Position numbers and translations under genes: made by a program | Virus record (IMG/VR): IMGVR_UViG_3300008114_002635 | Coordinates: 1-27,832 of that record | From: a virus | Reading direction: 5' to 3' (one strand) | DNA length: 27,832 bases | The notes under the pieces: generated by a model | Databases searched by the model: none | Seen by the model: only the letters and a program-made list of their open reading frames with translations | What the model was told of the DNA's origin: nothing | Part shown: piece after piece, positions 6-19,064 of the stretch | Numbering within the stretch: the first letter of the stretch is position 1 | Layout: each line of letters opens with the position of its first letter

Positions 6-224
6 ATGAAAGAATATATAAACAGAAGTTTTAGTATAGTTACTGAAAATTTACTCAAGTGTAAAGCTGAGAATTTCAAGGTGTTTTATGAGAACGAATT
101 AAATCAATCATTCGAAATTGGTGGATATATGATAAATGGAGATTATACTTTTGTAAAAATGAAAGAAGCTGGAAACTTTTTCAGAATAAAAGACAACGAA
201 AAGATATACATTCTTCGCAATTAA
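6..224 (+). CDS. small hypothetical protein (72 aa)
   Basis: A 72-residue ORF that I do not recognise. It is rich in Lys, Glu, Asn and aromatic residues, with no membrane segment or signal peptide. The pattern (FEIGGYMI, then TFVKMK, then FFRIKDNEKIYIL) suggests a small beta-rich fold. The ATG lies 6 bases from the window edge, so a start further upstream cannot be excluded. It is separated from the sugar operon by 146 bp that contain a possible hairpin terminator and a promoter, so it probably belongs to an upstream transcription unit. Codon use is AT-rich like its neighbours. Confidence 0.6.
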   Translation: MKEYINRSFSIVTENLLKCKAENFKVFYENELNQSFEIGGYMINGDYTFVKMKEAGNFFRIKDNEKIYILRN

Positions 225-370: not shown

Positions 371-1630
371 ATGAAAAAAAATAATGATCTAATATTCGTG
401 CAGATAGCATCATATCGTGATCCAGAATTGGTTCCTACCATCAAGGACATGATTGCCAAAGCGAAACATCCAGAAAAATTAACATTTGGTATTTGTTGGC
501 AAAAAGATGAAACGGAAAATCTTGACGAATTCATCGACAATCCAAATTTCAGAATTGAAACATATCATTATTCAGAAAGCCAAGGACTGGGTTGGGCTAG
601 AAACATAACAAACAAGTTGTATCGTGGGGAAAAATACACCTTGCAGATTGATAGTCACCATCGTTTTGTTCAAGATTGGGATGCAATGATTCTTGAAGAT
701 TATGATCAGGCTTTGTCGGTTGCAAAAAAACCAATCATAAGCACATATTGTACACCATTTGACACTGCGTTGCCGATTGAAAAAGCAAGCCCAGTACCAT
801 GCTTGATGTCACAATATGAATTTAGCAATGACAAACTTTTGATGAGCATGCCTCATTACATTGGAGATTATGAGAAGCGAACCAAAATTATTCGCGCTCG
901 CACGTTGAGTGGACATTTCTTTTTTGTTGCTGGAAAATTTATTGAAGAAGTACCATATGATCCAGACATTTATTTTGGTGGATACACTGAAGAAACAACT
1001 ATGAGTGTTCGTGCATATACACATGGATATGATTTCTTCAGCCCATACAGAATGATTATGTGGCATGAATATACTCGCAAATATCGTCCAAAGCATTGGG
1101 ATGATCACGGCAAGGAAAGTGCCACAAAGAAGACAAGTGGTGAGAGAGATATTTATGCAAGAAAGAAAACTCGCCAATTGTTCGGACAAGAAGAACATGG
1201 AATTGATATGGGAATTTATGGATTAGGAAAGGTTCGCTCTTTGCATGATTATGAAGTATACGGAGGTTTTAATTTCAAAGCATGTAAAATACAAGATTAT
1301 ACTCTATTGGTAAAAGAACCACCGAATCCACCTGATTGGGAGGCGCAATTCAAAAAAGAAAGACTCAAAATGAATGTTGCATGGGATGTAGGACATTTCA
1401 TGGAAGAAGACACTGGAGATTTTGAATTCATCACATTTGGCGTCGTTGACAAATATGACACAAATTTGTTCAGAGTTGATTTCAAACCATCAACTCATCC
1501 TGAAATATTCACATACAAGAAAAGTTCAATTGATGTAGAGATAATTTCAGATAACAAGCCAGACAGAGTAATAATGTATTCTTTTAGCAAATCAAAACAG
1601 TGGGGTAAGCGTTACGAGAAAAAACTATGA
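371..1630 (+). CDS. GT60/GlcNAc-type glycosyltransferase
   Basis: Probable UDP-sugar-dependent glycosyltransferase of the PF11397 (GlcNAc, GT60-like) family, 419 aa. The N-terminus shows the family pattern FVQIASYRDPEL (residues 9-20) followed by IKDMIAKAKHPEKLTFGICWQ. The metal/nucleotide motif reads QIDSHHRF with D94-S95-H96 in the DxD position. A central FFVAGKF...DPDIYFGGYTEE stretch also fits the family. Characterised eukaryotic members attach GlcNAc to protein hydroxyl groups (Skp1 hydroxyproline, Thr of Trypanosoma cruzi mucins); substrate use here is not shown. The C-terminal third (about 300-419) is beta-rich and unassigned. It is first in a seven-gene operon and overlaps the next gene by ATGA. 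No SD precedes the start; the TATAAT at 355-360 is just upstream. Confidence 0.85.
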   Translation: MKKNNDLIFVQIASYRDPELVPTIKDMIAKAKHPEKLTFGICWQKDETENLDEFIDNPNFRIETYHYSESQGLGWARNITNKLYRGEKYTLQIDSHHRFVQDWDAMILEDYDQALSVAKKPIISTYCTPFDTALPIEKASPVPCLMSQYEFSNDKLLMSMPHYIGDYEKRTKIIRARTLSGHFFFVAGKFIEEVPYDPDIYFGGYTEETTMSVRAYTHGYDFFSPYRMIMWHEYTRKYRPKHWDDHGKESATKKTSGERDIYARKKTRQLFGQEEHGIDMGIYGLGKVRSLHDYEVYGGFNFKACKIQDYTLLVKEPPNPPDWEAQFKKERLKMNVAWDVGHFMEEDTGDFEFITFGVVDKYDTNLFRVDFKPSTHPEIFTYKKSSIDVEIISDNKPDRVIMYSFSKSKQWGKRYEKKL

Positions 1631-2805
1631 GAATATTGTTCACTGTTTTAGGAAACAGTCGTCGTAGTAATTATCTTGACGGAGAAACATTAAGATATGG
1701 AAACGGCGGTGGATCTGGGACTGATACCAGTTCAATAATAGTTGCTGAACAACTCGCCGCACAAGGCCACGATGTGGTGTTTTGTTCAGACAAACTAGAA
1801 CCACTGTTGGAAGAGTCTTATGCCAAAAAAGGAATTGTATTTAATGCAGGAAAGAAAGTTCGTGGTGTAATATACACGAACTTTCAGTTGGATAATGTTG
1901 AAAACAAAACATTTGATGTGTTGGTGAACAGTCTATGGTTCAGTAAGTACAAAGAGTTGCCAGTCAAAATCACAAAGGCTGTAATCTATTGGTGTCATAT
2001 GCAATGGATTTATGGAATTGGCGAGATGATTGAGTATGTCAAGGAAAACAACCTAACCCTCGGATTTGTTCATATTTCAGAATGGGAAAAGAGCATGACA
2101 AATCCAGTTGTACAGGATGCTTGTAACAAATTGCCAAATACAAAGGTTGTTACGATACCAAATCCTATAATGGATGACATGATTGAAGAAGTGTTGAGTG
2201 AGAAGATAGAAAAGAAAAGCGGGTCATTTATTTTTCATCCACTTTGGGCAAGAGGAGGAAATGTGGCAGTACAAGCGGTACGTGAACTTGATTTTCCAGA
2301 AAAAGAATTCAACGCATTTGATTATCTCATGTGCATTCATGGTCACACTGATCCATTCTTTAGAAATCATAATGGTGTGGACAAGAAAACCTTGTTCAGA
2401 TGTTTGGCAAAGAGTGACTATTTCATTTATCCACTGTATACTCCATACAAGGATGTTCACAAAGATACATTTTCGTGTGTTGTTGCAGAGGCAATTGCTA
2501 TGGGCGTAACTGTAGTAACATACCCATTAGGTGCATTACATGACAACTTTGATGGATATTGCGCATGGTTGGATTTTCCACCAGATACTGATCCTATAAA
2601 GATGCAAAAGGAACAATTGTCAAAGGACGAAGAAGGCAAGTTCAATTACACAGAGAACATAGTTGAAAAGGTCAAATATTTGGAAGCCAATACTGAATTT
2701 AAAAACAAAGTAAGAACCCAAGGCAAAGATTTCATATTTGAGAAATTTAATTCCAACAAAGTAGGACTGATGTGGCGCGATTTTATTTCACAGTTAACAT
2801 CATAA
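1627..2805 (+). CDS. GT-B (GT4-like) glycosyltransferase, copy 1
   Basis: A 392-aa protein with a GT-B layout. The N-terminus has a Gly-rich acceptor loop (GNGGGSGTDTSS, residues 25-36) followed by VAEQLAAQGHDVVF, typical of the first Rossmann fold of GT4 enzymes. The C-terminal domain carries DTFSCVVAEAIAMGVTVVTYPLGAL, resembling the GT4 sugar-nucleotide-binding E-x7-E region. The exact activity is unknown. It overlaps the upstream gene by ATGA and is followed after 4 nt by a paralogue of identical length with about half of its residues identical, so the pair arose by tandem duplication. No signal peptide or membrane segment is visible, so it is presumably cytoplasmic. Confidence 0.75.
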   Translation: MRILFTVLGNSRRSNYLDGETLRYGNGGGSGTDTSSIIVAEQLAAQGHDVVFCSDKLEPLLEESYAKKGIVFNAGKKVRGVIYTNFQLDNVENKTFDVLVNSLWFSKYKELPVKITKAVIYWCHMQWIYGIGEMIEYVKENNLTLGFVHISEWEKSMTNPVVQDACNKLPNTKVVTIPNPIMDDMIEEVLSEKIEKKSGSFIFHPLWARGGNVAVQAVRELDFPEKEFNAFDYLMCIHGHTDPFFRNHNGVDKKTLFRCLAKSDYFIYPLYTPYKDVHKDTFSCVVAEAIAMGVTVVTYPLGALHDNFDGYCAWLDFPPDTDPIKMQKEQLSKDEEGKFNYTENIVEKVKYLEANTEFKNKVRTQGKDFIFEKFNSNKVGLMWRDFISQLTS

Positions 2806-2809
2806 TATC

Positions 2810-3988
2810 ATGAGAATAGCAATCATAGTAATAGGAAACAGCAGACGAAACAATTATCTGAACGGTCATAATCTCAGATATGATGGTGGAGGGGCATCTG
2901 GCACAGACACTAGTTCAATGCTTGTTGCTGAATATTTGGCAAGCAAAGGACATGAGGTTGTAATGACTGTGGATGAATTGGAGCCATTACTTGAAGAGAA
3001 ACTACAAAAGCAGGGAAAGAAGTTTGTGCCCGGAGCAAAAAGTTATGGTGTTTCATACACAAATAAAAACTTCGACGGTATTGAGAATAAAACTTTTGAT
3101 GTATTGATAAACATGCTTTGGTTTCAAGACTATGACAAGCTTCCTATTACAGTAACCAAGAGTTTGATTTATTGGTGTCATATGCAATGGGTATATGGGA
3201 TAGATGCACATATGGCATATGCAAGAAAACACAATCTTACTCTCGGAATGGTTAATGTTTCGACTTGGCAAGCTAGTGTGTCACAGAATGTTATAAATCA
3301 TGTCAAAGCCAATTACGAAAAAACAAAGCAATTCCTAATTTCAAATCCAATTTTTGATGAAATGATCAGAGAGGTTGAGCAGGAACCAATTCAAAAGAAG
3401 AAAGGTAAGTTTATATTTCACGCCACATGGCCAACGGGTGGAGATGTTGCAATGCAGGCAGTCAGAGAGTTGGATATGCCAGAAAAACAGTTTCATGCAT
3501 TTGATTATTTCATAACGGTGCATGGTCATACTGAGTCATATTTCCACAACCATCAAGCGGTGGATAGAAAAACACTTTACAAACACTTGGCTGAAAGTGA
3601 ATATTTCATATATCCATTGTATACCATACACAAGGTTTTGAGAAAAGATACATTTGCATGCACTGTTGCAGAGGCTCTTGCTTTTAACACAATTGTATTA
3701 ACATATCCACTTGGTGCATTGCCAACTGTGTTTGGTGACAAGTGTGTTTGGTTGGATGCCCCGCCGGGCACTAACCTCGATGAGCTTCAACGTGCTGATT
3801 TGGCAAGAGACGAAGAAGGAAAGTTCAAATATACAAAAAATATCGTGGATAAGATAAACTATCTTGAAGCTAACCCAGAGATAAAGGAAAAATATAGAAC
3901 TGGTGGAAGACAATATGTGCTTGAAAATTTTAATATTAACAAGATTGGAAAAATGTGGGAGGATTGCTTGGAGGAATTGACAAAATGA
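2810..3988 (+). CDS. GT-B (GT4-like) glycosyltransferase, copy 2
   Basis: A 392-aa paralogue of the preceding gene. Shared blocks include GNSRRxNYL, LRYxxGGxSGTDTSS, ENKTFDVLxNxLWF, IYWCHMQWxYGI, QAVRELDxPEK, and SxYFIYPLYT with KDTFxCxVAEA. The conserved N-terminal Gly-rich loop and C-terminal E-x7-E-like region predict the same GT-B fold. Divergence is highest at residues 160-210, as expected if the copies now recognise different acceptors, though this is inference. It starts 4 nt after the first copy and overlaps the GT25-type gene by ATGA, so the genes are probably translationally coupled. Confidence 0.75.
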   Translation: MRIAIIVIGNSRRNNYLNGHNLRYDGGGASGTDTSSMLVAEYLASKGHEVVMTVDELEPLLEEKLQKQGKKFVPGAKSYGVSYTNKNFDGIENKTFDVLINMLWFQDYDKLPITVTKSLIYWCHMQWVYGIDAHMAYARKHNLTLGMVNVSTWQASVSQNVINHVKANYEKTKQFLISNPIFDEMIREVEQEPIQKKKGKFIFHATWPTGGDVAMQAVRELDMPEKQFHAFDYFITVHGHTESYFHNHQAVDRKTLYKHLAESEYFIYPLYTIHKVLRKDTFACTVAEALAFNTIVLTYPLGALPTVFGDKCVWLDAPPGTNLDELQRADLARDEEGKFKYTKNIVDKINYLEANPEIKEKYRTGGRQYVLENFNINKIGKMWEDCLEELTK

Positions 3989-4683
3989 AAATAGAAAATT
4001 TCTTTGAAAAAGGATACTATATAAATCTGGACAGAAGAACAGACAGAAACGAGCTTTTTCGTAAAGAAATGGATAGAGTTGGGTTGCTATCTTTTTTTGA
4101 AAGAGTTTCCGCTGAAGATGGTATAAATGAACCAGATCCAATGAAGAGGCATGCGTACTGTGCATATACTTATCACAAATTATTCAAGAAAATATGCGAT
4201 CTCGGATATGAAAGAGTGCCGATTTTTGAAGATGATGCATTTTTCTATGACAGACCAGAAATATCAGGAAGAGATTTGGCGGAAAAAGCATTGGACGATC
4301 TAAAATATTTTCCAAATTGGGACATGGTTTTGTTTGGAGGAAGACCCGTGGATACAGTTGGACCTCTGCAAATAATGACAGACAATCTTTTCAGATCACA
4401 AATGGTTCTAGGAACTCACGCCGTTGGATACAGAAGAAAAGTTATCAAGAAGGTACTTGATGAATATGTTCCATTTCAAGATGGTACGATTGATGGTTGG
4501 TATGGTAATGTTCCTGTCATAGAAAAATATCTGGTAAACCCCCTCGCATGTGGAGCTATGCCCGTTAAAAGTGATTTGGACGGCAATGGCTATATATCAA
4601 ACGTTAAAGATGATATCATTTGCTATGATAGAGTGCCAAAAATAGACAAACGCCATGAAACACAAAGTAATAAGCCTGTATAA
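3985..4683 (+). CDS. GT25-type glycosyltransferase
   Basis: A 232-aa protein of the GT25 type (LPS/collagen galactosyltransferase family). The N-terminal YYINLDRRTDR (residues 11-21), then FFERVSAEDG (37-46) and the acidic motif FEDDAFF (81-87) are family hallmarks; the EDDA motif is expected to bind the nucleotide-sugar metal ion. The ATG at 3985, which gives an ATGA overlap with the previous gene, is preferred over the in-frame ATG at 3955, because the family N-terminus begins just before the YYINLDRR strand and 3955 would lie deep inside the upstream gene. Donor and acceptor sugars cannot be read from the sequence; GT25 members usually transfer galactose or glucose. Confidence 0.8.
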   Translation: MKIENFFEKGYYINLDRRTDRNELFRKEMDRVGLLSFFERVSAEDGINEPDPMKRHAYCAYTYHKLFKKICDLGYERVPIFEDDAFFYDRPEISGRDLAEKALDDLKYFPNWDMVLFGGRPVDTVGPLQIMTDNLFRSQMVLGTHAVGYRRKVIKKVLDEYVPFQDGTIDGWYGNVPVIEKYLVNPLACGAMPVKSDLDGNGYISNVKDDIICYDRVPKIDKRHETQSNKPV

Positions 4684-5344
4684 ATCGGATATTGACTATA
4701 CGATAGTTGAATTGCAAAAGAAAGTTTTTGATTATTTTTCAATTCCTCTTGAGCAAATTTCATTCGATGGCATGCATTCTACTGCCATTGAAAAATATGT
4801 GAAAAATAACAATGATTGGGACAGTATAACCATATTTGATGTTGATTGCATTCCCATCACACATGATTGTGTATCAAGAGCAATCAAGGAAATATCAGAC
4901 AATAATACCATCTATGGGAATGGACAGGCTTCCAACTCAATATTTCCAACAACACCAAGAACTCCTCCTTTTATAGCACCAAGTTTTCTAAGCTTCAGCA
5001 GAGATTTATGGGAAAGATCTCCATTCAAGAATTTTGATTTTCAAAGATATCCAAATCCAGAAGGAATTTCTATGGAAGCTGATGTGGCGGAGGTATTCAC
5101 CAGAGAAAATGAAAAAGCTGGAAGAAGAATAGCTATGAATTATCCAACCAGATGTTTAACTGGTATAGCATGGAATTATTTCGGCGGATATGGCTATAAG
5201 GAATTTGGTTTTGGAATTGCAACGGAGTTTGAAAGCGGAACATATCATAATTTTCAAATCAGATTGCCAGAGAAACAAAAATACTTCTTTGATTATTGCG
5301 ACAAATTGATGCGCGGAGAAAAAATTGAAAGTTTTGTATCATGA
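4655..5344 (+). CDS. probable GT-A-like glycosyltransferase
   Basis: A 229-aa protein that I cannot place in a named family. The stretch SITIFDVDCIP (residues 57-67) looks like the end of a beta strand leading into a DxD motif (D62-V-D64), as in GT-A sugar transferases. Its position inside a co-directional block of sugar enzymes supports this. The C-terminal half contains an aromatic, Gly-rich stretch (WNYFGGYGYKEFGFG) but no membrane segment. The start overlaps the GT25 gene by 29 nt, and the stop overlaps the GT11 gene by ATGA. It could alternatively be a non-catalytic sugar-processing protein. Confidence 0.55.
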   Translation: MKHKVISLYKSDIDYTIVELQKKVFDYFSIPLEQISFDGMHSTAIEKYVKNNNDWDSITIFDVDCIPITHDCVSRAIKEISDNNTIYGNGQASNSIFPTTPRTPPFIAPSFLSFSRDLWERSPFKNFDFQRYPNPEGISMEADVAEVFTRENEKAGRRIAMNYPTRCLTGIAWNYFGGYGYKEFGFGIATEFESGTYHNFQIRLPEKQKYFFDYCDKLMRGEKIESFVS

Positions 5345-6165
5345 AGGAAATGACCAGCAATTATATCACTTGCAGACTGCAAGGCAGAACAGGAAACATA
5401 ATGTTTCAGATAGCAAACGGCTACTCTCAGTCGTTAAAACATAATAGACAGTTTGTTGTTCCGTCAAAAGAATCAACAACCAGTCATTTGGAAAAAGGAT
5501 TGTTCAGAAAATTTGACTTTAGAATAAACACTATCCCGTCAAACAATATTGCACATCATATTTGGGCACCTTTTACATACAAAGAATTTGCTCCAGCAGA
5601 AGACAGACCCACGGCTTTCTGTGGATGGTATCAATCTGAAAAATACTTTGGAAACTATAAAGAAGTAATAAGAGATGCATTTAGTCCAACTACGGAATTT
5701 GTAATAAAAGCAACAAAAGAATTTCCGTTTTTAAATTCAGCCAGAGTTGCCGCCATAAATGTAAGAAGAGGAGATTATCTCACCCAACCAAGACATCATC
5801 CAGTTGTGACATTGGATTATATAGAAGAAGCAAGAAAACTTCTGCCACAACATGATTATCTAATGGTTCTTAGTGATGATTTTGAATGGTGTAAGAACAA
5901 CATCAAAGGAAATAACATCATATTTCCAAGCAACTATGTTGATCAGGATGCTATGTGGCTATTATCAATGTGTGATGATTTTATTATTTCAAACTCTACA
6001 TTCAGTTGGTGGGGTGCATTCTTATCAAGAACAAAAAACAAGGTGGTTATATCTCCATCCACGTGGTTTGGACCAGACATACATGAAGATCCTTCTGATG
6101 TTTGGTGTGAAGGTTGGATAAAAGTTCCAACAAAATGGAAAGACGGTTTTATTGTAATGGAATAA
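5341..6165 (+). CDS. GT11 alpha-1,2-fucosyltransferase
   Basis: A 274-aa protein with the defining motifs of GT11 (alpha-1,2-fucosyltransferase) enzymes. An N-terminal GRTGNIMFQIANGYS (15-29) matches the family GxGNQMFQ motif. The peptide NVRRGDY (140-146) is the HxRRGDY GDP-fucose-binding motif, with N in place of H. SNSTFSWWGAFLS (217-229) is the third conserved block. The enzyme would transfer fucose from GDP-fucose to a galactose-type acceptor in the cytoplasm. No GDP-fucose biosynthesis gene is in the window, so the donor must come from the host or from elsewhere in the genome. Length is close to bacterial members (about 280-300 aa). It joins the upstream gene by ATGA and glf by a 1-nt gap. 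Confidence 0.88.
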   Translation: MKEMTSNYITCRLQGRTGNIMFQIANGYSQSLKHNRQFVVPSKESTTSHLEKGLFRKFDFRINTIPSNNIAHHIWAPFTYKEFAPAEDRPTAFCGWYQSEKYFGNYKEVIRDAFSPTTEFVIKATKEFPFLNSARVAAINVRRGDYLTQPRHHPVVTLDYIEEARKLLPQHDYLMVLSDDFEWCKNNIKGNNIIFPSNYVDQDAMWLLSMCDDFIISNSTFSWWGAFLSRTKNKVVISPSTWFGPDIHEDPSDVWCEGWIKVPTKWKDGFIVME

Positions 6166-6166
6166 T

Positions 6167-7276
6167 ATGTACGACTATCTAATAGTAGGAGCAGGATTTT
6201 TTGGAAGCATATGCGCTTATGAACTAAACAAGATTGGAAAGAAAGTCTTGGTGATTGATGTGCGCAATCATATTGGTGGAAATTGCTATAGCGAAAATAG
6301 GGATAATATCAACCTACATGTTTATGGTCCACATATATTTCATACTTCAGACGAAGAGGTTTGGAAGTGGATCAATCAGTTTACATCGTTTAATAACTTC
6401 ATATACACCCCCGTGGCTAATTATGATGGAGAGTTGTATTCTTTACCATTTAACATGTGGACGTTTTATCAGCTATGGGGAGTGCAAAGTGAAGAAGAAG
6501 TAAAAGCAATAATAGCCAAACAATCGGCCCATATTGGTGAGCCAAAAAATCTTGAAGAACAAGCAATCAAGTTGGTTGGTAGAGATGTGTATGAAACATT
6601 GATCAAAGGGTACACGGAAAAACAGTGGCGCAAAAAGGCGACAGAGTTGCCAAAAGAGATTATCAAGAGACTGCCAGTAAGATACACTTTTAACAACAAC
6701 TATTTCAATGATAAGTATCAAGGTATTCCAATTGGTGGATACACTCAGATATTTGAAAAGCTTTTAAAAGGAATAGATGTCAAAACCGGTGTTGATTATT
6801 TCAAGGACGAATTGCCGCCTCATGACAGAGTGATATACACAGGTCCGATTGATAAATTCTATGGATACAAATATGGACATCTCGAATACAAGACTGTTTC
6901 GTTAGATCATATGAGAATGGAAACTCCAAATTATCAGGGAGTCGCCGCTATAAATTACACAAGTGAAAAAGTTCCATTCACTCGCACCATAGAACATAAA
7001 CATTTCGAAAATTCACAGAGTGATGTGACTTGGGTAAGTTGGGAAACGCCAATCCAATATGTTCCAGAAAAAACAGAGCCATATTATCCTGTAAATGATG
7101 CTGCCAATATGGAAATATTGAAAAAGTACAAGGAAGAATCATCAAAGCAAGACAAAGTGATATTCGGTGGTAGACTTGGTGAATACAAATATTATGACAT
7201 GCACCAAGTTATACGCAGTGCGTTGGATTGTGCAAATCATCTCAAATATTTGGAAGTTTGGCATCCAAAAGTGTGA
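6167..7276 (+). CDS. glf: UDP-galactopyranose mutase
   Basis: A 369-aa FAD enzyme that interconverts UDP-galactopyranose and UDP-galactofuranose. The N-terminal dinucleotide-binding GAGFFG (8-13) is followed by VLVIDVRNHIGGNCYS and HVYGPHIFHT. Further family blocks are FTRTIEHKHF (with the conserved active-site Arg), a WETPIQYVPEKTEPYYPVND region, and the C-terminal GGRLGEYKYYDMHQVI. Length matches bacterial UGMs (about 367-390 aa) and all blocks are intact, so it should be active. It supplies a galactofuranose donor and is the last gene of the sugar operon, implying that one of the upstream transferases uses UDP-Galf. A short inverted repeat begins at its stop codon. Confidence 0.95.
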   Translation: MYDYLIVGAGFFGSICAYELNKIGKKVLVIDVRNHIGGNCYSENRDNINLHVYGPHIFHTSDEEVWKWINQFTSFNNFIYTPVANYDGELYSLPFNMWTFYQLWGVQSEEEVKAIIAKQSAHIGEPKNLEEQAIKLVGRDVYETLIKGYTEKQWRKKATELPKEIIKRLPVRYTFNNNYFNDKYQGIPIGGYTQIFEKLLKGIDVKTGVDYFKDELPPHDRVIYTGPIDKFYGYKYGHLEYKTVSLDHMRMETPNYQGVAAINYTSEKVPFTRTIEHKHFENSQSDVTWVSWETPIQYVPEKTEPYYPVNDAANMEILKKYKEESSKQDKVIFGGRLGEYKYYDMHQVIRSALDCANHLKYLEVWHPKV

Positions 7277-7432: not shown

Positions 7433-7879
7433 ATGAGTACACTAAGTAGATATACACGGGATGAGTTTCTCACCCCATTTGATCGTCTATTTGACGATGT
7501 CTTCAATAACTTCGGCGTAACACCTTACGCTGGGTCTTATACCAAGAACAGCTATCCAAAAGTAGATGTTGTTGAGTATGATGACAGGTATGTGCTTGAA
7601 GCGGATGTTGCTGGATTGAACAAGGAAGAAGTTTCCGTGGATCTTGAAGGCGATACACTAGTAATCAAAGGAGGCAAAAGAACAAACCATGAAAATACAA
7701 ATAAAGGAAAATATCTGTATAAAGAAATTAAGCGTTCTAGTTTCACACGCTCGTTTAGTGTGGGAGAAGGTATTGACAAAAATAAAATCAAAGCCGACTT
7801 CGCAAACGGAACAATAAAAGTTGATCTTCCTAAACTGAAGATTGAAGAACAAAAGCCAAAAACATTGAGGCTCCTATAA
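7433..7879 (+). CDS. small heat shock protein Hsp20 (alpha-crystallin family)
   Basis: A 148-aa ATP-independent holdase that should bind unfolding proteins and keep them refoldable by DnaK. The alpha-crystallin domain spans about residues 42-134, from YPKVDVVEYDDRYVLEADVAG through KGKYLYKEIKRSSFTRSF to the signature ADFANGTIKVDLPK (121-134). The N-terminal arm (LTPFDRLFDDVFNNF) has the usual amphipathic, Phe-rich character, and the C-terminus ends with L145-R-L147, an IxI-like oligomerisation motif. Length is normal. AAAGGA about 8 nt before the ATG is one of the few SD-like sites in this window. Hsp20 genes are known in T4-like cyanophages; pairing with dnaK is less usual. It is followed by the dnaK promoter/inverted repeat region. 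Confidence 0.93.
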   Translation: MSTLSRYTRDEFLTPFDRLFDDVFNNFGVTPYAGSYTKNSYPKVDVVEYDDRYVLEADVAGLNKEEVSVDLEGDTLVIKGGKRTNHENTNKGKYLYKEIKRSSFTRSFSVGEGIDKNKIKADFANGTIKVDLPKLKIEEQKPKTLRLL

Positions 7880-7884
7880 AATAG

Positions 7885-7913
7885 TTGACAATGTTTGGGG
7901 CTAGGTTTATTCT
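7885..7913 (+). promoter_or_regulatory. candidate sigma70-type promoter of dnaK
   Basis: A perfect -35 TTGACA at 7885-7890 is followed by a 17-nt spacer and TATTCT at 7908-7913 (4 of 6 matches to TATAAT). Transcription would begin near 7920, about 18 nt before the dnaK ATG. The -10 falls exactly in the loop of the inverted repeat at 7891-7926, so a protein bound to the repeat would block the promoter. Confidence 0.45.
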
Positions 7914-7926
7914 TAGCCCCAAACAT
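7891..7926. promoter_or_regulatory. perfect 13-bp inverted repeat between hsp20 and dnaK
   Basis: ATGTTTGGGGCTA (7891-7903) and TAGCCCCAAACAT (7914-7926) are perfect inverted arms around a 10-nt centre. The element lies directly behind the TTGACA and ends 11 nt before the dnaK start. Its architecture resembles CIRCE, the HrcA operator of dnaK and groE operons (9-bp arms, 9-bp spacer), but the arm sequence is not CIRCE. As RNA it would be a strong hairpin, but it lacks a T-run, so it is a poor intrinsic terminator. It could instead be an mRNA thermosensor or stabiliser. Confidence 0.6.
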
Positions 7927-7937
7927 ATTATAAATTT

Positions 7938-9797
7938 ATGACTAAATCAAATGACATTGTTATTGGTATTGACCTTGGCACGACGAATTCGTGCGTGGCT
8001 GTATGGCAAGCGGGTGAAGCTACAGTAATTACCAACTCGGAAGGTGCTCGTACTACCCCTTCGGTTGTTGCTTTTACAAAAAGCGGGGAAAGACTTGTTG
8101 GTCAAGCTGCTAAGAGACAGGCGGTGACCAATCCAAAGAATACAATTTTTTCGGCCAAGAGACTTATTGGTCGCAAGTTCAACGAAGTGCAGGAAGAAAT
8201 CAAGAATCTTCCATACAAGGTCGTTGAAGGTACAAATGGAGATGCTTGGATCGAAGTAACAGAGAACGGAGAAGCTAAGAAATATTCTCCTCAACAGATT
8301 GGCGCATTTGTTCTTGGAAAGATCAAAACCGATGCCGAATCATATTTGGGACAATCTGTGAAGAAGGCGGTTATCACAGTACCTGCGTATTTTAATGATT
8401 CTCAACGTCAAGCTACCAAGGATGCTGGCACTATTGCCGGTTTGGAAGTTCTGCGTATTATCAACGAACCTACCGCAGCATCCTTAGCCTATGGTCTAGA
8501 CAAGAAGAAAGACGAGAAAATTGCCGTCTTTGACCTTGGCGGTGGTACGTTTGACGTTACCGTTCTCGAAATTGGGGACGGTGTATTTGAAGTTAAAGCC
8601 ACCAATGGTGATACGCATCTTGGTGGTGATGATTGGGACAGAGCAATCATGGACCACATGGTTGCGGAATTCAAAAAAGAAAATGGTATTGACTTGTCCA
8701 AAGATAATATGGCTTTACAGCGTCTACGCGAAGAAGCCGAAAAAACCAAGATTGCTTTGTCTTCTGCAACATCATATGATGTAAATCTCCCGTTTATCAC
8801 GGCGGATGCATCTGGCCCAAAGCATTTGAATATGACAATTTCTCGTTCAAAAATGGAACAAATCTGCGAGAAGTTGTTTGAAAGAATGGATGCTCCATAT
8901 AAGAACTGTTTGAAGGATGCTGGTGTATCAAATAGTGAACTCAATGAGCTTGTGCTTGTTGGTGGCATGACAAGAATGCCAAAGGTTGTTGATTATGCCA
9001 AGAAGTTCGGTGGTAAAGTTCCAAATCAAGGTGTAAATCCAGATGAAGTTGTGGCAGTCGGTGCCGCTGTACAAGGTGGTGTATTGAAGGGTGAGGTCAA
9101 CGACGTATTGTTGCTTGACGTTACTCCGCTGACCCTTGCGATTGAAACCGCAGGAAATGTTGCGACGGCAATGATTCCTCGTAACACAACAATTCCTGCT
9201 AAGAAGTCACAAGTGTTCTCCACATACAGCGACAATCAGCCTTCCGTTGATATTGTTGTATTACAGGGTGAGCGCCCAATGAGCAAAGACAATAAGCGTC
9301 TTGGAAACTTCAAACTGGACGGCATTCCGCCAGCACCAAGAGGCACTCCTCAAATTGAAGTGACGTTTGACATTGACGTAAACGGCATTCTTCATGTCTC
9401 TGCAAAAGATCTTGGAACGGGCAAAGCTCAAGATATCACCATTCAAGGTTCATCTGGTCTTTCAAAGGAAGAAGTTGAAAGAATGAAGCAAGAAGCTGAA
9501 GCAAATGCTGATAAAGACAAAGAACTCAAGGAAAATCTTGAGACCAAGAATTCTCTTGACAATATTATCTATGGTTGGGAAAAACAACTAAAGGATGGTA
9601 ACTTTGAAGATTCTGTCAAAACCGAAATTCAAAAAGGTATTGACAAAGGCAAAGAAGTGTTACAGAGTGGTGATGTTGGAAAAATGAAAGATACTATCTC
9701 TGAACTTAGCAAACTCGGAGAACTTGTTTATAAGAACAAGTCTAATGGTGGGAAAGGAACTCCAGAAGATCCAATCGAACCAGAAGTAGTAAGCTAA
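7938..9797 (+). CDS. dnaK: molecular chaperone DnaK (Hsp70)
   Basis: A complete 619-aa Hsp70 (E. coli DnaK has 638). The ATPase domain shows [15 protein letters not shown] (9-23), SAKRLIGR with the conserved Lys (K74), [25 protein letters not shown] (197-207) and [12 protein letters not shown] (339-350). The linker [10 protein letters not shown] (391-400) leads into a substrate-binding domain with [14 protein letters not shown] and [18 protein letters not shown] shortened helical lid occupies about 505-600. The tail ends PEVVS rather than the bacterial EEVD-like terminus. All ATPase motifs are intact, so the protein should be active. No dnaJ or grpE is in the window, so host co-chaperones are probably used. 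The protein looks very bacterial, and its codon use seems richer in CGT/CGC Arg codons than its neighbours, hinting at later acquisition (inference). No SD is seen. Confidence 0.97.
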
Positions 9798-9915: not shown

Positions 9916-11463
9916 ATGACATTTTTCGCATTTCTAGTGCTTTTAAGCGCAATAGCCATTTCTGCTTGTGGTGCATATTTTAGCATTATTGGTCTTAAAA
10001 TGTTGTTTATTGGGGGAGGAGTATCAATCATAGTGATGGGAACCGCGCTTGAAATTGGAAAACTTATCACCGCCACCTTCTTGAAACAAAAATGGAACGA
10101 GATTGGATTTCTTCTGAAAACATATCTTGTTATCGCCACAATATTTTTGATGGGTATAACTTCTATAGGAATATATGGGTATTTGAGTGCAGGATACACT
10201 TCAACAAATATTGCAGTAAAAGGATATGAGCAACAAATAGAATCAAACAATATAAAGATAGTTGATCTTGAGAAAGAAATAGAAACACTCAAGAAGACAG
10301 AATACAATGTGGTGGAAATAGGAGCGACTGAAGATAATAGGAAAAAAACAATAGAGCAAAAATTACAACTGATTGCTCAAAGAAATCAACGTATAGAAGC
10401 TATAAGAAAATCATCAAACACAAATCAAGACGCATCTGGTGATATTTTAGCAGCCAAGCAAGCATTGGAATTATCAAAGTCTTCAACAGATAACGATATC
10501 TCAAGAGAACTTGAGCAAATAAAGCTGTATAATTCAAGATTAGAAATTTTAGATAAGGAAGTACAGAAATGGATAGATCAAGGAACAGGAAATTTATTCA
10601 GAAAAAGCGGGTTGGACCAAGCAAGAATTGTAAAGGAAGGACAGGAAAAGGAACGCTCCGATATAGATGCACAAATTAAATCTTCACAGGACAGAATATC
10701 AAAATTAAGAGATCAATATTCATCCCAAGTAAAAGAATACAACAGTCGTGTAGCTGAAATAGAAGGTAGAAGTAAATCACAAAGAGGAGAAATAGAATCC
10801 AATGTAAAAAATCTTGAAAAAGAAATAACGGAAATAGAAGCATCTATAGTATCATACAATAAGGAAGTGGATGAAAAGATTTCATTGCTTAACAAGAACA
10901 AAGAAGAATCCGCCGAAAAAGGAAAAAATAAAATTTCAGAATATCAAGAAAACATAAAAGTTCTTAGAGTTCAAAACACCGAGATACAGGAAAAAATTAT
11001 TGGGACTGACGTTGGTACATTTAAATTCATCGCAAATAGTCTTGGAATACCATTGGAAAAGGCTGTAAATTATTTCATATGGTCTATTATGGCCGTGTTT
11101 GATCCATTGGCTATATGTTTAATCCTAGCATTTAATTCGTTGATGATAGATAGTAAAAACAAAAAATCAAAAAATAATGATAAAGAACTTAACGTAGTTG
11201 AAATTTTACCTACGTTGGAACACACGCCCACACCAACTCCTACACCAACTCCTACACCAACTCCAACGCCAACTCCAACGCCAACTTATATACCTTCTCC
11301 AACGCCGACATATGTTCCATCTAACACTCCAACACCAACGCCAACCGAAATACCAATTCAAGTCGAGTCTACAAATGAAGATATAAATGTTGCCGCGCCA
11401 CTTCCCCCACCAATTGCTATACCTCACGCAATATCAAATGGAAAATTGCATCCAAGACAATAA
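9916..11463 (+). CDS. four-TM coiled-coil membrane protein with Pro-Thr repeat tail
   Basis: A 515-aa protein of unknown function. Three hydrophobic segments lie at about residues 3-24, 28-50 and 66-90. A long charged helical, predicted coiled-coil region follows at 100-360 (frequent EIE, LEKEI and IEQKL patterns), then a fourth membrane segment at 386-411 containing FDPLAICLILAFN. The tail has (Thr-Pro)n repeats at 437-477 and ends in a Pro-rich segment (PLPPPIAIP). The layout recalls bacterial membrane coiled-coil proteins such as DUF4407, but I cannot confirm membership. The Pro-Thr tail resembles an extended, mucin-like linker that might be O-glycosylated. The gene stands alone between the dnaK terminator and the def promoter, with TATTTATA 4 nt before its ATG. 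Confidence 0.8.
   Translation: MTFFAFLVLLSAIAISACGAYFSIIGLKMLFIGGGVSIIVMGTALEIGKLITATFLKQKWNEIGFLLKTYLVIATIFLMGITSIGIYGYLSAGYTSTNIAVKGYEQQIESNNIKIVDLEKEIETLKKTEYNVVEIGATEDNRKKTIEQKLQLIAQRNQRIEAIRKSSNTNQDASGDILAAKQALELSKSSTDNDISRELEQIKLYNSRLEILDKEVQKWIDQGTGNLFRKSGLDQARIVKEGQEKERSDIDAQIKSSQDRISKLRDQYSSQVKEYNSRVAEIEGRSKSQRGEIESNVKNLEKEITEIEASIVSYNKEVDEKISLLNKNKEESAEKGKNKISEYQENIKVLRVQNTEIQEKIIGTDVGTFKFIANSLGIPLEKAVNYFIWSIMAVFDPLAICLILAFNSLMIDSKNKKSKNNDKELNVVEILPTLEHTPTPTPTPTPTPTPTPTPTPTYIPSPTPTYVPSNTPTPTPTEIPIQVESTNEDINVAAPLPPPIAIPHAISNGKLHPRQ
11224..11346 (+). repeat. Pro-Thr coding repeat (6-12 bp units)
   Basis: The DNA repeats units of CCAACN and the 12-bp CCAACTCCTACA, encoding alternating Pro and Thr at residues 437-477, interrupted by YIPS and YVPSN. 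Codons vary between units (ACA, ACT, ACG; CCA, CCT), suggesting selection on the peptide. Slippage between units could change the tail length among related phages. Confidence 0.9.
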
Positions 11464-11526: not shown

Positions 11527-12141
11527 ATGAGTTACAAAATTGTCAAAAACAAGGATTATCTACACAAGAAGACTGAACCAGTAGCGTCGATTGAAGAAGG
11601 CGAAGCAATTGCGAAGCAACTAATAGAAGCACTGGACCAGCTATCAAACGGACTTGGTTTATCCGCCAATCAAATTGGAATATCAAAGTCGGTTTCTGTC
11701 ATAAGAGTTAAGAAGGACAAAGATCCATTGATTCTTATGAATCCAACAATAACGGAATATAGTAAAGAAAAGCTTGTATTCACCGAAGGCTGTTTGAGTT
11801 TGCCCGGAAAACTTACAAACACGGTTCGTTCAACAAAAGTTACAGTATCAACATTAAATCATGCCAATCCAATTCCATTCGGACCAGAGGTCGAGCCAAT
11901 CACACAAGAATCTGTGAGAAGTGACTATGGGATATTAGAAGCGGTGTGTGTACAGCACGAGATAGATCATCTAAATGGTGTTCTTATGACCGACGACGGT
12001 GTAAGATACAACCCTCCACCAGAAAAAAAAGTAAAATATGGAAGAAATGACAAGGTGATGGTAGAAAAAAATGGAGAAACTCAATATATAAAATACAAGA
12101 AAGCCGAAGAGCTTTTAGCCGATGGATGGAAAATACTATAA
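11527..12141 (+). CDS. def: peptide deformylase
   Basis: A 204-aa metal enzyme that removes the formyl group from N-terminal Met of new proteins. All three motifs are intact: GLGLSANQIG (42-51), EGCLS (88-92, metal ligand C90) and QHEIDH (143-148, ligands H144 and H148, catalytic E145). The segment between motifs II and III is longer than usual. After the catalytic core there is an extra 45-residue charged tail (about 160-204, ending KKAEELLADGWKIL). E. coli PDF is 169 aa and cyanophage PDFs are shorter still, so the tail is unusual. It is first in a unit with two small genes and the sigma factor, behind the TTGACA/TATATA promoter. No SD precedes the ATG. Confidence 0.95.
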   Translation: MSYKIVKNKDYLHKKTEPVASIEEGEAIAKQLIEALDQLSNGLGLSANQIGISKSVSVIRVKKDKDPLILMNPTITEYSKEKLVFTEGCLSLPGKLTNTVRSTKVTVSTLNHANPIPFGPEVEPITQESVRSDYGILEAVCVQHEIDHLNGVLMTDDGVRYNPPPEKKVKYGRNDKVMVEKNGETQYIKYKKAEELLADGWKIL

Positions 12142-15340: not shown

Positions 15341-16207
15341 ATGGAATTTCCAAAATTTACAGCACCAACAATATCAATCAGTTCACAAACATCACTGAGT
15401 AGTATTGCAAAATCGTCTATACCTTCCATTAGTTCTCCAACAGGGCCGATCAACATAAGTGGTGTATCTAGTCAATTGTCTTTGTCTTCTATAGCTTCAA
15501 ATGCCAAGGTACCGACTTCATTATCAGGGGCGGCAAGTTCTTTGGGAGTACCAACGACCGTCGGTGGTATATCCTCCGCATTGGGAGGACCAACTTCGCT
15601 ATCGGCGGGATTGAGTTCCGCTGGCATTCCTACTACTTTACCAAATATATCGGCAGCAATACCTAATTTTTCAGCCACTTTACCGACACTCCCTACATTA
15701 AAATTGACACCAATTTCAAATTTTCCGGGACTAGATCAAGCTGGGATTTTACTTGGGGCTGGACCAAAATTTGCTGCTGAAAAAATTGCTAAACTAAAAT
15801 CGATTGTTCCTCCATTTGCGCCGGGACTAAAGTTGAATATGGGAATGGTTGCCGGTGCATTATCGGTTATCAAAGCAATATCTTCGGCAAATCCATCAGA
15901 ATTATTGAAGCAAATAACTTCAAGTATTGCCGAAGACATAAAAGGTCAAGTTGGAGATGTTGCAAAGAGTGCATTAGATAGTACAGGAATTTCTAATATT
16001 CAAGGCCAAATACAAGGATTACAGAGTAGCGTAGAATCCACAGTATCTGGTGTTACGGGTGCAGTACAGGAAAACATATCCACTGTTACAGGGGCTGCAC
16101 AGGATGCGGCTGCTTCTGTAACAAACCCTATACAAGAAACCGTATCTAATACAACATCGACGGTTAATGACAAAATAAGTGCTCTCAGCTTCCCACCATC
16201 GGGATAA
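15341..16207 (+). CDS. Ser/Ala/Pro-rich repeat protein, probable virion component
   Basis: A 288-aa low-complexity protein of unknown function. Residues 47-111 contain five consecutive 13-residue units, consensus SLSxxxSSxGxPT. The N-terminal third is similarly Ser/Thr/Pro-rich. Residues 140-200 include hydrophobic helices (MGMVAGALSVIKAISSANP), and residues 205-280 are Ser/Thr/Val-rich with repeated VTGA-type peptides. No signal peptide is visible. It lies between the gp5-like hub gene and the gp25 cluster, 6 nt after the hub stop, with a GGAGGA about 19 nt upstream. The repeats suggest an extended fibrous or linker protein, and the Ser/Thr density makes it a possible glycan acceptor. Both are inference. 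Confidence 0.7.
   Translation: MEFPKFTAPTISISSQTSLSSIAKSSIPSISSPTGPINISGVSSQLSLSSIASNAKVPTSLSGAASSLGVPTTVGGISSALGGPTSLSAGLSSAGIPTTLPNISAAIPNFSATLPTLPTLKLTPISNFPGLDQAGILLGAGPKFAAEKIAKLKSIVPPFAPGLKLNMGMVAGALSVIKAISSANPSELLKQITSSIAEDIKGQVGDVAKSALDSTGISNIQGQIQGLQSSVESTVSGVTGAVQENISTVTGAAQDAAASVTNPIQETVSNTTSTVNDKISALSFPPSG
15479..15673 (+). repeat. five 39-bp (13-residue) coding repeats
   Basis: Residues 47-59, 60-72, 73-85, 86-98 and 99-111 align as 13-residue units. The first four end in PT (KVPT, GVPT, GGPT, GIPT) and the fifth is degenerate (PNFS). The DNA units are diverged, so the amplification is old and the peptide pattern is maintained. Confidence 0.8.
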
Positions 16208-17101: not shown

Positions 17102-19053
17102 TATTAGACACACCAAAATCATTTCTACCGGGCAAAAAAGATGTCAAATATCTTAACAAGGATTTTTCCCAACTAAAATCCAGCTTGATTGAATTTGCCA
17201 AAACATATTATCCAAATACATATAAGGATTTCAGTGATGCATCAACAGGAATGATGTACATAGAAATGGCGGCGTATGTTGGAGATGTGCTTTCATACTA
17301 TATTGATTATCAGTTCAAGGAATCGATGTTAGTAAATGCAGAAGAGCGCCAAAACATTATTGATGCGGCAAGATCTGTTGGTTACAAAACAAAGCCAAGC
17401 ACACCAAGTTTCACAAAATTGGATGTATATCAACTTATTCCTTCAAAAATAAATGAAGATGGCAGTATATCTCCAGACATGAAATATGCTCAGATTATAA
17501 AGCCGGGCATGGCGTGCAGCAGCGACTCTGGCATACCGTTTCTTACTAGTGTTCCCGTTGATTTTACTGTTGATACCAAGAATGATCCGTTGGAAATTTC
17601 CGTTTATCAAAGAAACGCTGCTGGTCAACCTGAATTTTATGTATTGAAAAAGACAGTAAGTGCATTTTCTGGTCAAATATCCACTGCCACAATTTCGGTT
17701 TCTTCTCCTGTTCCATTTTTCAAAGTTACTCTTTCAGATACAAATGTTATTGAAGTTATGGATGTATATGACTCCGATGGCAACAGATGGTATGAGACAG
17801 ATTATCTTGCACAAGATCTTGTTCCTATTGAAAGTGAAAACATATTCAAGAATGATTCTGCATTATCAACATATCGTGATACTGTTCCTTTCCTATTAAG
17901 ATATCTGAGAACACCGAAAAGATTTGTCACGGGGGTTGGTGCCGACAACACAACATTTTTGGAATTTGGATCTGGAACCAATGTTTCAGACGACGAAGTT
18001 ATTATTCCAAATGTGTATACAGTGAACAGAGTTTCAACTTTTAGAAATGAAACTGCCACATATGATCCATCAAATTTCTTGTCATCAAGAGCATTTGGTC
18101 AAGCGCCTTCAAATACCTCATTGACAGTTCGTTATGTTGTTGGTGGCGGAATAACCAGCAATGTTAACGCAAATTCAATAAAGAACGTAACAGCGGTTGA
18201 TTTCTTCGGTGATATAACAGAACTTCCTGTTTTTGAACAGAATTTGACCACATTGGTAAGAAAGTCCATAAAAGTCAATAATCCATCTCCAGCGACAGGT
18301 GGTCGTAACGCCGAAACAAATGATGAAATACGAAATAATGCTCTTGCTAGTGTAGCAGCACAAGGTAGAGCAGTAACACAAAAAGATTATGTTATACGAG
18401 CATATGCGATGCCTTCAAAATTTGGATCGGTTGCAAAAGCATGGGCAGTGTCGGATGCACAATTGAATCCACAAAATATCCAAGCACAGCCGCAGTCAGA
18501 TGTAACAAGTTCACTTTCTCCATCAGCAACAAATAACAAAACATTGCAGGCTGCAAACTCATTTGCGATAAATCTTTATTTGCTTGGTTATAACACAAAT
18601 CAGAACTTGATTGCAACAAACGAGGCAATTCGTCAAAATCTCAAAAACTATTTGAATCAGTATCGTATGTTGACCGACAGTGTTAATCTTCTTGATGGAT
18701 ATATCATCAACATTGGTGTCGATTTTACGATCATTGCATACAAGAATTACAACAAGAGAGAAGTGTTGGCAAACTGCATATCACTTGTTCAGAAATTCTT
18801 TGATATCAATAATATTCAATTCTGCCAACCAATCAATTTAAGCAGACTTGAATTGGAAATTGCAAAGGTGGACGGAGTTCAGTCTGTATCATCATTGAAG
18901 ATAAAGAATCTTACACTGCGTGATGGCGATTATTCTCCATATGAGTATGATATTGAAAAAGCGACTATGGACAAAGTGGTATATCCTTCCATAGATCCTA
19001 GCGTGTTTGAGGTTAAATTCCCATCAAAGGATATAGTAGGCCGCGTAAGTTGA
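17098..19053 (+). CDS. baseplate wedge protein gp6-like
   Basis: A 651-aa protein close to T4 gp6 in length (660). The N-terminus (FLPGKKDVKYLNKDFSQLKSSLIEFAKTYYPN, then ASTGMMYIEMAAYVGDVLSYYIDYQ, 49-72) is the family block also seen in Baseplate_J proteins. The central beta-rich region contains FLEFGSGTNVSDDEVIIP. The block NAETNDEIRNNALASVAAQGRAVTQKDY (about 403-430) is a second hallmark. A C-terminal domain (DSVNLLDGYIINIGVDFTII and onward) matches the gp6/gpJ trimerising region. It forms the inner wedge ring with gp25. It overlaps gp25 by ATGA. Confidence 0.93.
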   Translation: MILDTPKSFLPGKKDVKYLNKDFSQLKSSLIEFAKTYYPNTYKDFSDASTGMMYIEMAAYVGDVLSYYIDYQFKESMLVNAEERQNIIDAARSVGYKTKPSTPSFTKLDVYQLIPSKINEDGSISPDMKYAQIIKPGMACSSDSGIPFLTSVPVDFTVDTKNDPLEISVYQRNAAGQPEFYVLKKTVSAFSGQISTATISVSSPVPFFKVTLSDTNVIEVMDVYDSDGNRWYETDYLAQDLVPIESENIFKNDSALSTYRDTVPFLLRYLRTPKRFVTGVGADNTTFLEFGSGTNVSDDEVIIPNVYTVNRVSTFRNETATYDPSNFLSSRAFGQAPSNTSLTVRYVVGGGITSNVNANSIKNVTAVDFFGDITELPVFEQNLTTLVRKSIKVNNPSPATGGRNAETNDEIRNNALASVAAQGRAVTQKDYVIRAYAMPSKFGSVAKAWAVSDAQLNPQNIQAQPQSDVTSSLSPSATNNKTLQAANSFAINLYLLGYNTNQNLIATNEAIRQNLKNYLNQYRMLTDSVNLLDGYIINIGVDFTIIAYKNYNKREVLANCISLVQKFFDINNIQFCQPINLSRLELEIAKVDGVQSVSSLKIKNLTLRDGDYSPYEYDIEKATMDKVVYPSIDPSVFEVKFPSKDIVGRVS

Positions 19054-19059
19054 TTTATA
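19052..19059 (+). promoter_or_regulatory. GATTTATA, one-mismatch match to the TATTTATA box
   Basis: GATTTATA ends 5 nt before the ATG at 19065 and overlaps the gp6 stop codon. It keeps the box-to-start spacing seen at 9904, 13485 and 27099 but lies at a tight gene junction, so it may be chance. Confidence 0.2.
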
Positions 19060-19064
19060 ACACC

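Follow-up and report, generated by a model that had tools for sequence, protein, structure and literature searches.

A phage sugar operon headed by a GT60 glycosyltransferase, and the linkage of GT60 genes to proline-threonine-rich proteins

The 27,832-nucleotide stretch of virus DNA analyzed here (the window; positions 1 to 27,832 of IMG/VR record IMGVR_UViG_3300008114_002635) carries a seven-gene sugar operon at positions 371-7276, the first gene of which encodes a member of glycosyltransferase family 60 (GT60). Relatives of this gene tend to adjoin genes for "mucin-like" proteins with proline-threonine (PT) tracts, in phages and in some bacteria. We consider it probable that the operon is a phage cassette for cytosolic mucin-type O-glycosylation, acting on threonines in the PT tracts of phage proteins and extending the first sugar with galactofuranose (Galf) and fucose (Fuc). 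The computed basis for this reading consists of gene families, a DxH motif, a predicted fold, the operon itself, and linkage to and co-occurrence with PT proteins; from these we infer the acceptor threonine, the sugars (N-acetylglucosamine, GlcNAc, first), their order, the location on the virion, and the biological role. The source record (31.5 kb) lies within a 184,824-base IMG/VR contig, hereafter G001, at 103528-135025 with 99.8-99.9% identity, and baseplate wedge genes in the window identify the source as a phage, myovirus-like.

Characterized GT60 enzymes transfer GlcNAc to Ser/Thr or hydroxyproline of proteins, as exemplified by the polypeptide alpha-GlcNAc-transferases of protists: Gnt1 of Dictyostelium, which acts on Skp1, and the enzymes acting on the mucins of Trypanosoma cruzi. 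Gene 1 (371-1630, plus strand) would encode such a polypeptide N-acetylhexosamine (HexNAc; GlcNAc) transferase of 419 amino acids. It had been assigned to GT60 in an original prediction made from the DNA alone, and a family search run as a refuting test placed it inside PF11397 at 202.5 bits, against a curated cut-off of 21; the same profile found 0 matches in 14 well-known control genomes. D94-S95-H96, E208, R214, H232, and E233 are invariant in all 21 aligned relatives, and the pattern Q-[LIMV]-D-[SA]-H is present in 45 of 46 viral GT60 sequences, the exception (L023) reading QFDSH. According to the consulted part of a published comparison, the change from DxD to DxH marks GT27 and GT60 among GT-A enzymes, and the two families are placed together with reference to their shared Ser/Thr O-glycosylation of polypeptides (PMC7185993).

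In an AlphaFold (AF2) model of gene 1, built from 13 sequences with a predicted local distance difference test (pLDDT) score of 79.9, the catalytic domain is followed at the C terminus by a mostly-beta domain of ~90 residues (about 330-419). The first 35 Foldseek matches of this model are all polypeptide N-acetylgalactosamine (GalNAc) transferases, and after realignment the first 29 entries are again GalNAc-transferases, with Z scores from 21.5 to 18.1, the next family following at 16.6. The best of these alignments (Z 21.5) covers 275 residues with a root mean square deviation of 3.8, and the aligned rows are 12-16% identical. Searching the PDB by sequence with the GT60 protein and its profile returned no match and no GT60 structure. 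The predicted fold favors a polypeptide acceptor without demonstrating one; considered together with the DxH motif and the linkage to PT proteins, it makes a polypeptide-directed enzyme, as originally proposed, the best reading of gene 1.

The linkage was assessed in several comparisons, which correct only partly for phage kinship. Of 30 dereplicated viral loci, 19 have a same-strand PT open reading frame (ORF) no more than two genes from GT60, a count that none of 20,000 permutations with random positions reached (mean 8.0, maximum 18). When loci from PT-selected contigs were left out, 13 of 21 had a PT gene within two genes, against a mean of 5.6, with 3 of 20,000 permutations reaching 13. 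At the level of whole records, a (PT)4 DNA pattern occurs in 22 of the 26 GT60-bearing records found through GT60 alone (13 of 15 after dereplication at 90% GT60 identity). Of the control set, 37 contigs of 30 kb or more retrieved with a Pro-Lys/Glu pattern, a single contig has it (p=6e-12, 22/26 versus 1/37); the backward (PT)4 control pattern gave 0 matches in all records. The reverse test, starting from 80 contigs listed for a (PT)6 pattern, found GT60 in 10 of the 42 that are at least 30 kb long, compared with 0 of 37 contigs found by a P[K/E]6 pattern (p=0.001); leaving out one previously known contig gave 9 of 41 (p=0.003). Among contigs related through the baseplate gene, all of them possibly fragments, PT was present in 12 of 14 GT60-positive and 3 of 9 GT60-negative contigs (p=0.02).

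A similar arrangement is found in some bacteria. When one genome per species was scanned, relatives turned up at 170 loci; among the best 80, the set analyzed here, a PT-rich ORF passed the threshold in 9. Because no GT60 ORF was recovered in 21 of the 80, statements about bacterial neighbors cover 59 loci plus L421, for which coordinates were used. GT60 has a P/S/T-rich gene as its immediate neighbor in L414, L416, L431 (a 1.3-Mb contig of an isolate), and L433, and in L421 the coordinates place the PT-rich ORF directly against the GT60 match. The PT proteins of L416, L421, L431, and L433 have an N-terminal RR motif with a hydrophobic stretch, which is twin-arginine-like as judged by eye and by a simple pattern; in the more general proposal given below, the sugars in bacteria would accordingly go on before export of the folded protein. 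Two contigs from Sphingomonas metagenome-assembled genomes, L428 and L432, encode PT-containing proteins of about 1200 amino acids with, by eye, a baseplate-like N terminus, a few genes away from GT60, and perhaps represent a phage-tail-like system.

In a tree of viral and bacterial GT60s (untrimmed MAFFT alignment, FastTree, midpoint rooting), the viral sequences scatter among the bacterial ones, with PT neighbors in several lineages. The group of L024 and L393-L395 joins Verrucomicrobia-type sequences (support 0.96), the group of L390-L392 and L396 contains Saprospiraceae sequences (0.98), all four of its viral members coming from PT-selected contigs, and the GT60s of phages XacN1 and RAS14 join Burkholderiales-type sequences (0.97). 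L399-L406 group with bacterial L417 at a support of only 0.34. Because viral GT60s group separately with bacterial lineages, the PT pairing is not limited to one phage clade.

The prime acceptor candidate lies just outside the window. Judged by linkage, this would be g191 (G001:101018-103525, plus strand), a protein of 835 amino acids with long Pro-Thr tracts whose gene is two genes upstream of GT60 and ends two bases before window base 1; a 72-amino-acid ORF called on G001 (g192, window 6-224, plus strand) separates the two. The original prediction had instead named three Ser/Thr/Pro-rich proteins in the window, one of which keeps its candidacy. This protein, g202 (9916-11463, plus strand), appears membrane/coiled-coil-like (maximum KD19 2.22) and has an overall Ser/Thr content of only 15%, and its (PT)n tract near the C terminus (about residues 437-477, about window 11224-11346, with (PT)4 DNA matches at G001:114754-114812) makes it a possible acceptor. 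Microcystis phage Mel-JY01, for which the GT60 search was negative, encodes a homolog that aligns with g202 up to residue 409 and has no PT tail. The other two, both on the plus strand, received no special support: 15341-16207 has 27% Ser/Thr, no PT tract, and a position beside tail genes, while 19050-20390, beside a baseplate wedge gene, has 23% Ser/Thr and only 4% Pro, for which "extreme" was an overstatement. Homologs of the latter occur in two phages without a found GT60, which ruled out Ser/Thr richness alone as a criterion for acceptors.

Across G001, 10 proteins contain PT tracts at the threshold used, with 1,241 tract residues, 462 of them Thr. These tracts are encoded by 15 different PT codon pairs, which argues that the repeat is kept at the protein level. 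A PHROGs search of the 10 proteins mostly matched phrog_15511 (function unknown) at the tract, with a single match of g180 to a virion structural protein family; in g178, the PT tract lies in sequence between two Laminin_G_3 stretches. PT genes adjoin baseplate or tail genes in L007, L013, L014, and L022. In g180, g181, and the PT ORFs of L005, L403, and L405-L407, a short module at the N terminus (HGNP...VFG...GW) recurs ahead of a PT tract and a variable C-terminal part, an arrangement resembling a cassette of interchangeable appendages. Near the end of the contig, g254 (G001:173842-184065) is an ORF of 3407 amino acids, 45% Ser/Thr, with long blocks of GSS/GTS triplet repeats; by its sequence it is a candidate collagen-like fiber and a possible second acceptor.

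All seven ORFs of the operon lie on the plus strand and overlap or are 1-4 bases apart, in agreement with their original description as coupled end to end, and the next listed plus-strand ORF begins at 7433. Gene 2 (1627-2805), a GT-B glycosyltransferase belonging to the core of the cassette, is the putative Galf (second-sugar) transferase, and gene 3 (2810-3988) is a second GT-B enzyme and its paralog, the two matching at 513 bits in phmmer. Both reach Pfam GT-B families below cut-off only and are seen best in PHROGs, where they match a glycosyltransferase family (36.9 and 22.8 bits). The variable gene 4 (3955-4683, GTG start) falls just short of PF01755 (23.5 bits, cut-off 24), and its earlier GT25 label is softened here to GT25-like. 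Gene 6 (5341-6165), another variable gene, belongs to the GT11 fucosyltransferase family (PF01531, 90.3 bits, cut-off 23.9), and gene 7 (6167-7276) is a UDP-galactopyranose mutase (PF03275, 237.9 bits, cut-off 26.3) that would supply uridine diphosphate (UDP)-Galf; these two identifications, likewise anticipated, are far over the Pfam cut-offs.

Gene 5 (4655-5344), also variable, remained without a Pfam or PHROGs family under the limits applied, and its sequence search of the PDB gave one chance-level match only. Its AF2 model (pLDDT 81.4, from an alignment of only 3 sequences) has a GT-A-like fold, with weak Foldseek matches to glycosyltransferase domains (best E 1.5e-5, TMq about 0.47). Together with the DVD of its FDVDC motif, this predicted fold is consistent with the original label of a probable GT-A enzyme. 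Naming a family from the fold was attempted and abandoned: the matches to mimivirus R699, the collagen lysyl hydroxylase LH3, chondroitin synthases, and, further down the ranking, nucleotidyltransferases, with TMq values of about 0.34-0.55, were too weak.

The cassette was compared across 20 loci with a close GT60 (L004-L023, L004 being this phage's own longer contig). A relative of the gene 2 GT-B is present in 19 of the 20, on the other strand in L015, and the mutase in 13; GT25-like genes occur in 11, GT11 in 9, and gene 5 relatives in 3. From these counts, the core consists of GT60 and GT-B, often with the mutase, and the rest is variable. In this phage the cassette is located upstream of Hsp20/DnaK, and in L007, L013, and L014 it directly follows baseplate genes and precedes a fiber-like gene. 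Synthesis of guanosine diphosphate (GDP)-fucose, sought only as GDP-mannose dehydratase (PF16363), was not found in G001, which is possibly an incomplete genome, and the fucose would therefore have to be host-derived; two of five records searched (G041 and G054) gave weak PF16363 matches of about 50 bits. G001 has a second, larger sugar cluster (L493, G001:18104-31890) with GT4-type, GT-B-like, and several GT2-type genes, a GT11, a DUF707 match, and methyltransferases including one of the FkbM type, which could extend the same glycan or serve another.

The protein-linked glycan of the original prediction thus retains its GT60 enzyme, a polypeptide as the likely target, and the presence of mutase and GT11, and loses two of its three proposed acceptors. 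In the mechanism we propose, GT60 would move a HexNAc, GlcNAc by analogy with characterized GT60s, from a host UDP-sugar to Thr/Ser in PT tracts. The main targets would be PT-stalked phage proteins whose architecture and neighbors resemble virion appendages. The conserved adjoining GT-B enzyme would then extend this first sugar, plausibly with Galf from the mutase. Outer sugars, for instance fucose taken from host GDP-fucose, would be attached by the GT25-like, GT-A-fold, and GT11 enzymes, which vary among relatives. The outcome may be a set of stiff, protease-resistant, variable glycosylated stalks. A more general proposal, which we put forward tentatively and with somewhat less than even confidence, is that mucin-type O-glycosylation is widespread in prokaryotes: a cytosolic GT60 polypeptide HexNAc-transferase would be dedicated to PT tracts, bacteria would pair it with twin-arginine-like PT proteins, and phages would have acquired GT60 repeatedly, along with diversifying enzymes for chain extension and with PT-stalked proteins of appendages, to yield a variable self-made mucin coat.

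Several observations weigh against these proposals. The assayed GT60 activities come from protists, and the donor or acceptor of a prokaryotic GT60 might be a different one. PT ORFs at the threshold used are missing from 71 of the best 80 of 170 bacterial GT60 loci. Among the viral data, 4 of 26 GT60 records, including the 136-kb G005, have no (PT)4 tract, 32 of 42 PT contigs (many of them fragments) have no seen GT60, and in XacN1, RAS14, and others no PT gene lies within two genes of GT60. Nine of the 30 loci came from PT-selected contigs, and the permutation was repeated without them, as given above. The p-values overstate independence because the loci are related, and the co-occurrence is inflated by nearness on contig fragments. 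The sequence stretches retrieved for L007, L011-L015, L022, and L024-L027 contain no mutase, and Galf may therefore be confined to part of the loci. Glycoproteins have been reported for XacN1, and the consulted portion of that report does not show which proteins these are or how they were detected.

Three other explanations were weighed against glycosylation of PT tracts. That the cassette remodels a host surface polysaccharide (O antigen or capsule), for example excluding other phages, we regard as unlikely. Lipopolysaccharide commonly involves Galf, Fuc, and GT25/GT11 enzymes, and the outer transferases differ between relatives. A jumbo-phage review, in the part consulted, interprets variable clusters of transferase genes in cyanophages in this way, as systems for surface polysaccharide (PMC7824862). 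The motif and predicted fold of gene 1, however, resemble those of polypeptide transferases, and among the seven products no transmembrane segment was seen by hydropathy and no flippase or lipid-carrier transferase was found with Pfam; nor would this explanation predict the linkage between GT60 and PT proteins. The same linkage is not predicted if the target of the transferases is phage DNA, modified by way of a hydroxymethylated base in the manner of T-even phages, a role that we consider very improbable. Phage transferases are often DNA-modifying, and we know of no DNA activity for GT60. The thymidylate-synthase/dCMP-hydroxymethylase family (PF00303), present in 1 of 11 records, was not found in G001, and Tet_JBP was found in 0 of 13 records, in a search without any control match. 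DNA modification is the option named first for the transferases of moraphages in the consulted part of their description (PMC12619734).

The remaining explanation accepts that GT60 glycosylates protein and places its chief acceptors elsewhere, in the G-S/T-X repeats of g254, in S-rich tail proteins, or in host proteins, the PT linkage then reflecting shared islands of appendage genes. The size (3407 amino acids), 45% Ser/Thr content, and GSS/GTS repeats of g254 speak for it, as do a repeat like that of g254 in the ORF directly upstream of GT60 in L395 and the GT60 records without (PT)4 tracts. Against this, 19 of 30 loci, in differing gene contexts, have a PT gene at a distance of two genes or less, bacterial GT60s, including that on the 1.3-Mb isolate contig L431, also have P/S/T-rich neighbors, and the PT tail is missing from the g202 homolog of Mel-JY01. 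We judge it improbable and continue to favor PT tracts as the acceptors.

Compared with the protist GT60 enzymes of Dictyostelium (Gnt1) and T. cruzi, the phage enzyme shares the PF11397 profile, the DxH motif, and the predicted GalNAc-transferase-like fold, and its operon includes Galf- and Fuc-type enzymes; it differs in being phage-encoded, in having no membrane anchor, in sharing one operon with its extenders, and in its putative PT-tract acceptors. The GT27 GalNAc-transferases provide the nearest solved folds (Z up to 21.5) and are alike in the DxH motif and the Pro/Thr-rich acceptors proposed here, whereas the phage enzyme belongs to another family, is 12-16% identical, and ends in a short domain, about 90 residues long and mostly beta. 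Among phages, mycobacteriophages also encode transferases thought to decorate virion proteins, with glycans at the C termini of capsid and tail-tube subunits (Freeman et al. 2023, as cited in the consulted part of PMC12619734); the present system differs in pairing a GT60 enzyme, the putative primer, with PT-tract proteins.

GT60 homologs with 34-35% identity are encoded by Xanthomonas phage XacN1 (ORF334, 34.6%) and Stenotrophomonas phages CM1/RAS14. Unlike in this phage, no mutase/GT-B cassette adjoins GT60 in XacN1, RAS14, and CM1, and no PT gene lies within two genes. XacN1 and RAS14 have 7 and 3 PT pattern matches, respectively, and the XacN1 tracts are at least partly in a giant ORF325 that follows a baseplate wedge gene. 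In XacN1 (AP018399.1, ORF333-ORF334), an annotated carbamoyltransferase comes after the GT60 homolog and might modify the same sugar, and a similar-sized gene follows in RAS14. Moraphages are large aquatic Bacteroidota phages, some with DnaK and Hsp20, whose core includes four putative transferase orthogroups. The consulted part of their description suggests that these transferases could modify DNA, serotype, or virion and draws no link between GT60 and PT proteins (PMC12619734). The phage studied here resembles these large phages, some of which have DnaK and Hsp20, in carrying both genes, which is only suggestive of membership.

By its larger wedge protein, the nearest isolates are Mel-JY01 (45%) and Flavobacterium phage immuto (37%), and neither has a GT60 match. 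Hsp20 and DnaK (window 7433-9797) and a peptide deformylase gene (window 11527-12141) adjoin the sugar operon. G001 has 10 tRNA/tmRNA genes in total, among them a transfer-messenger RNA (tmRNA) gene at G001:8603-8996 with a long predicted tag peptide, and further encodes UvdE and an IMP dehydrogenase-family gene. At G001:63498-66324, DUF1800 and DUF1501 genes lie side by side, an unusual pair in a phage.

Phage protein glycosylation and GT60 enzymes are known already; what this analysis suggests in addition is the pairing of GT60 with PT proteins, a pairing not described in the titles and abstracts listed by one open-access library, the scope of our search, with subscription papers mostly and supplements wholly outside it. 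To our knowledge, there are very few known cases of phage-made protein glycans, and mucin-type initiation is regarded as a eukaryotic trait. If the proposal is true, prokaryotic PF11397, an experimentally open family, would gain a predicted acceptor for which a single peptide would suffice as a test, and its soluble, presumably cytosolic mucin-type enzymes would be usable as tools. Many hypothetical PT-rich phage proteins would gain a role as glycosylated stalks, and through the variable outer transferases phages would be able to change the sugars on their surface, with a bearing on adsorption, shielding, and binding to other surfaces.

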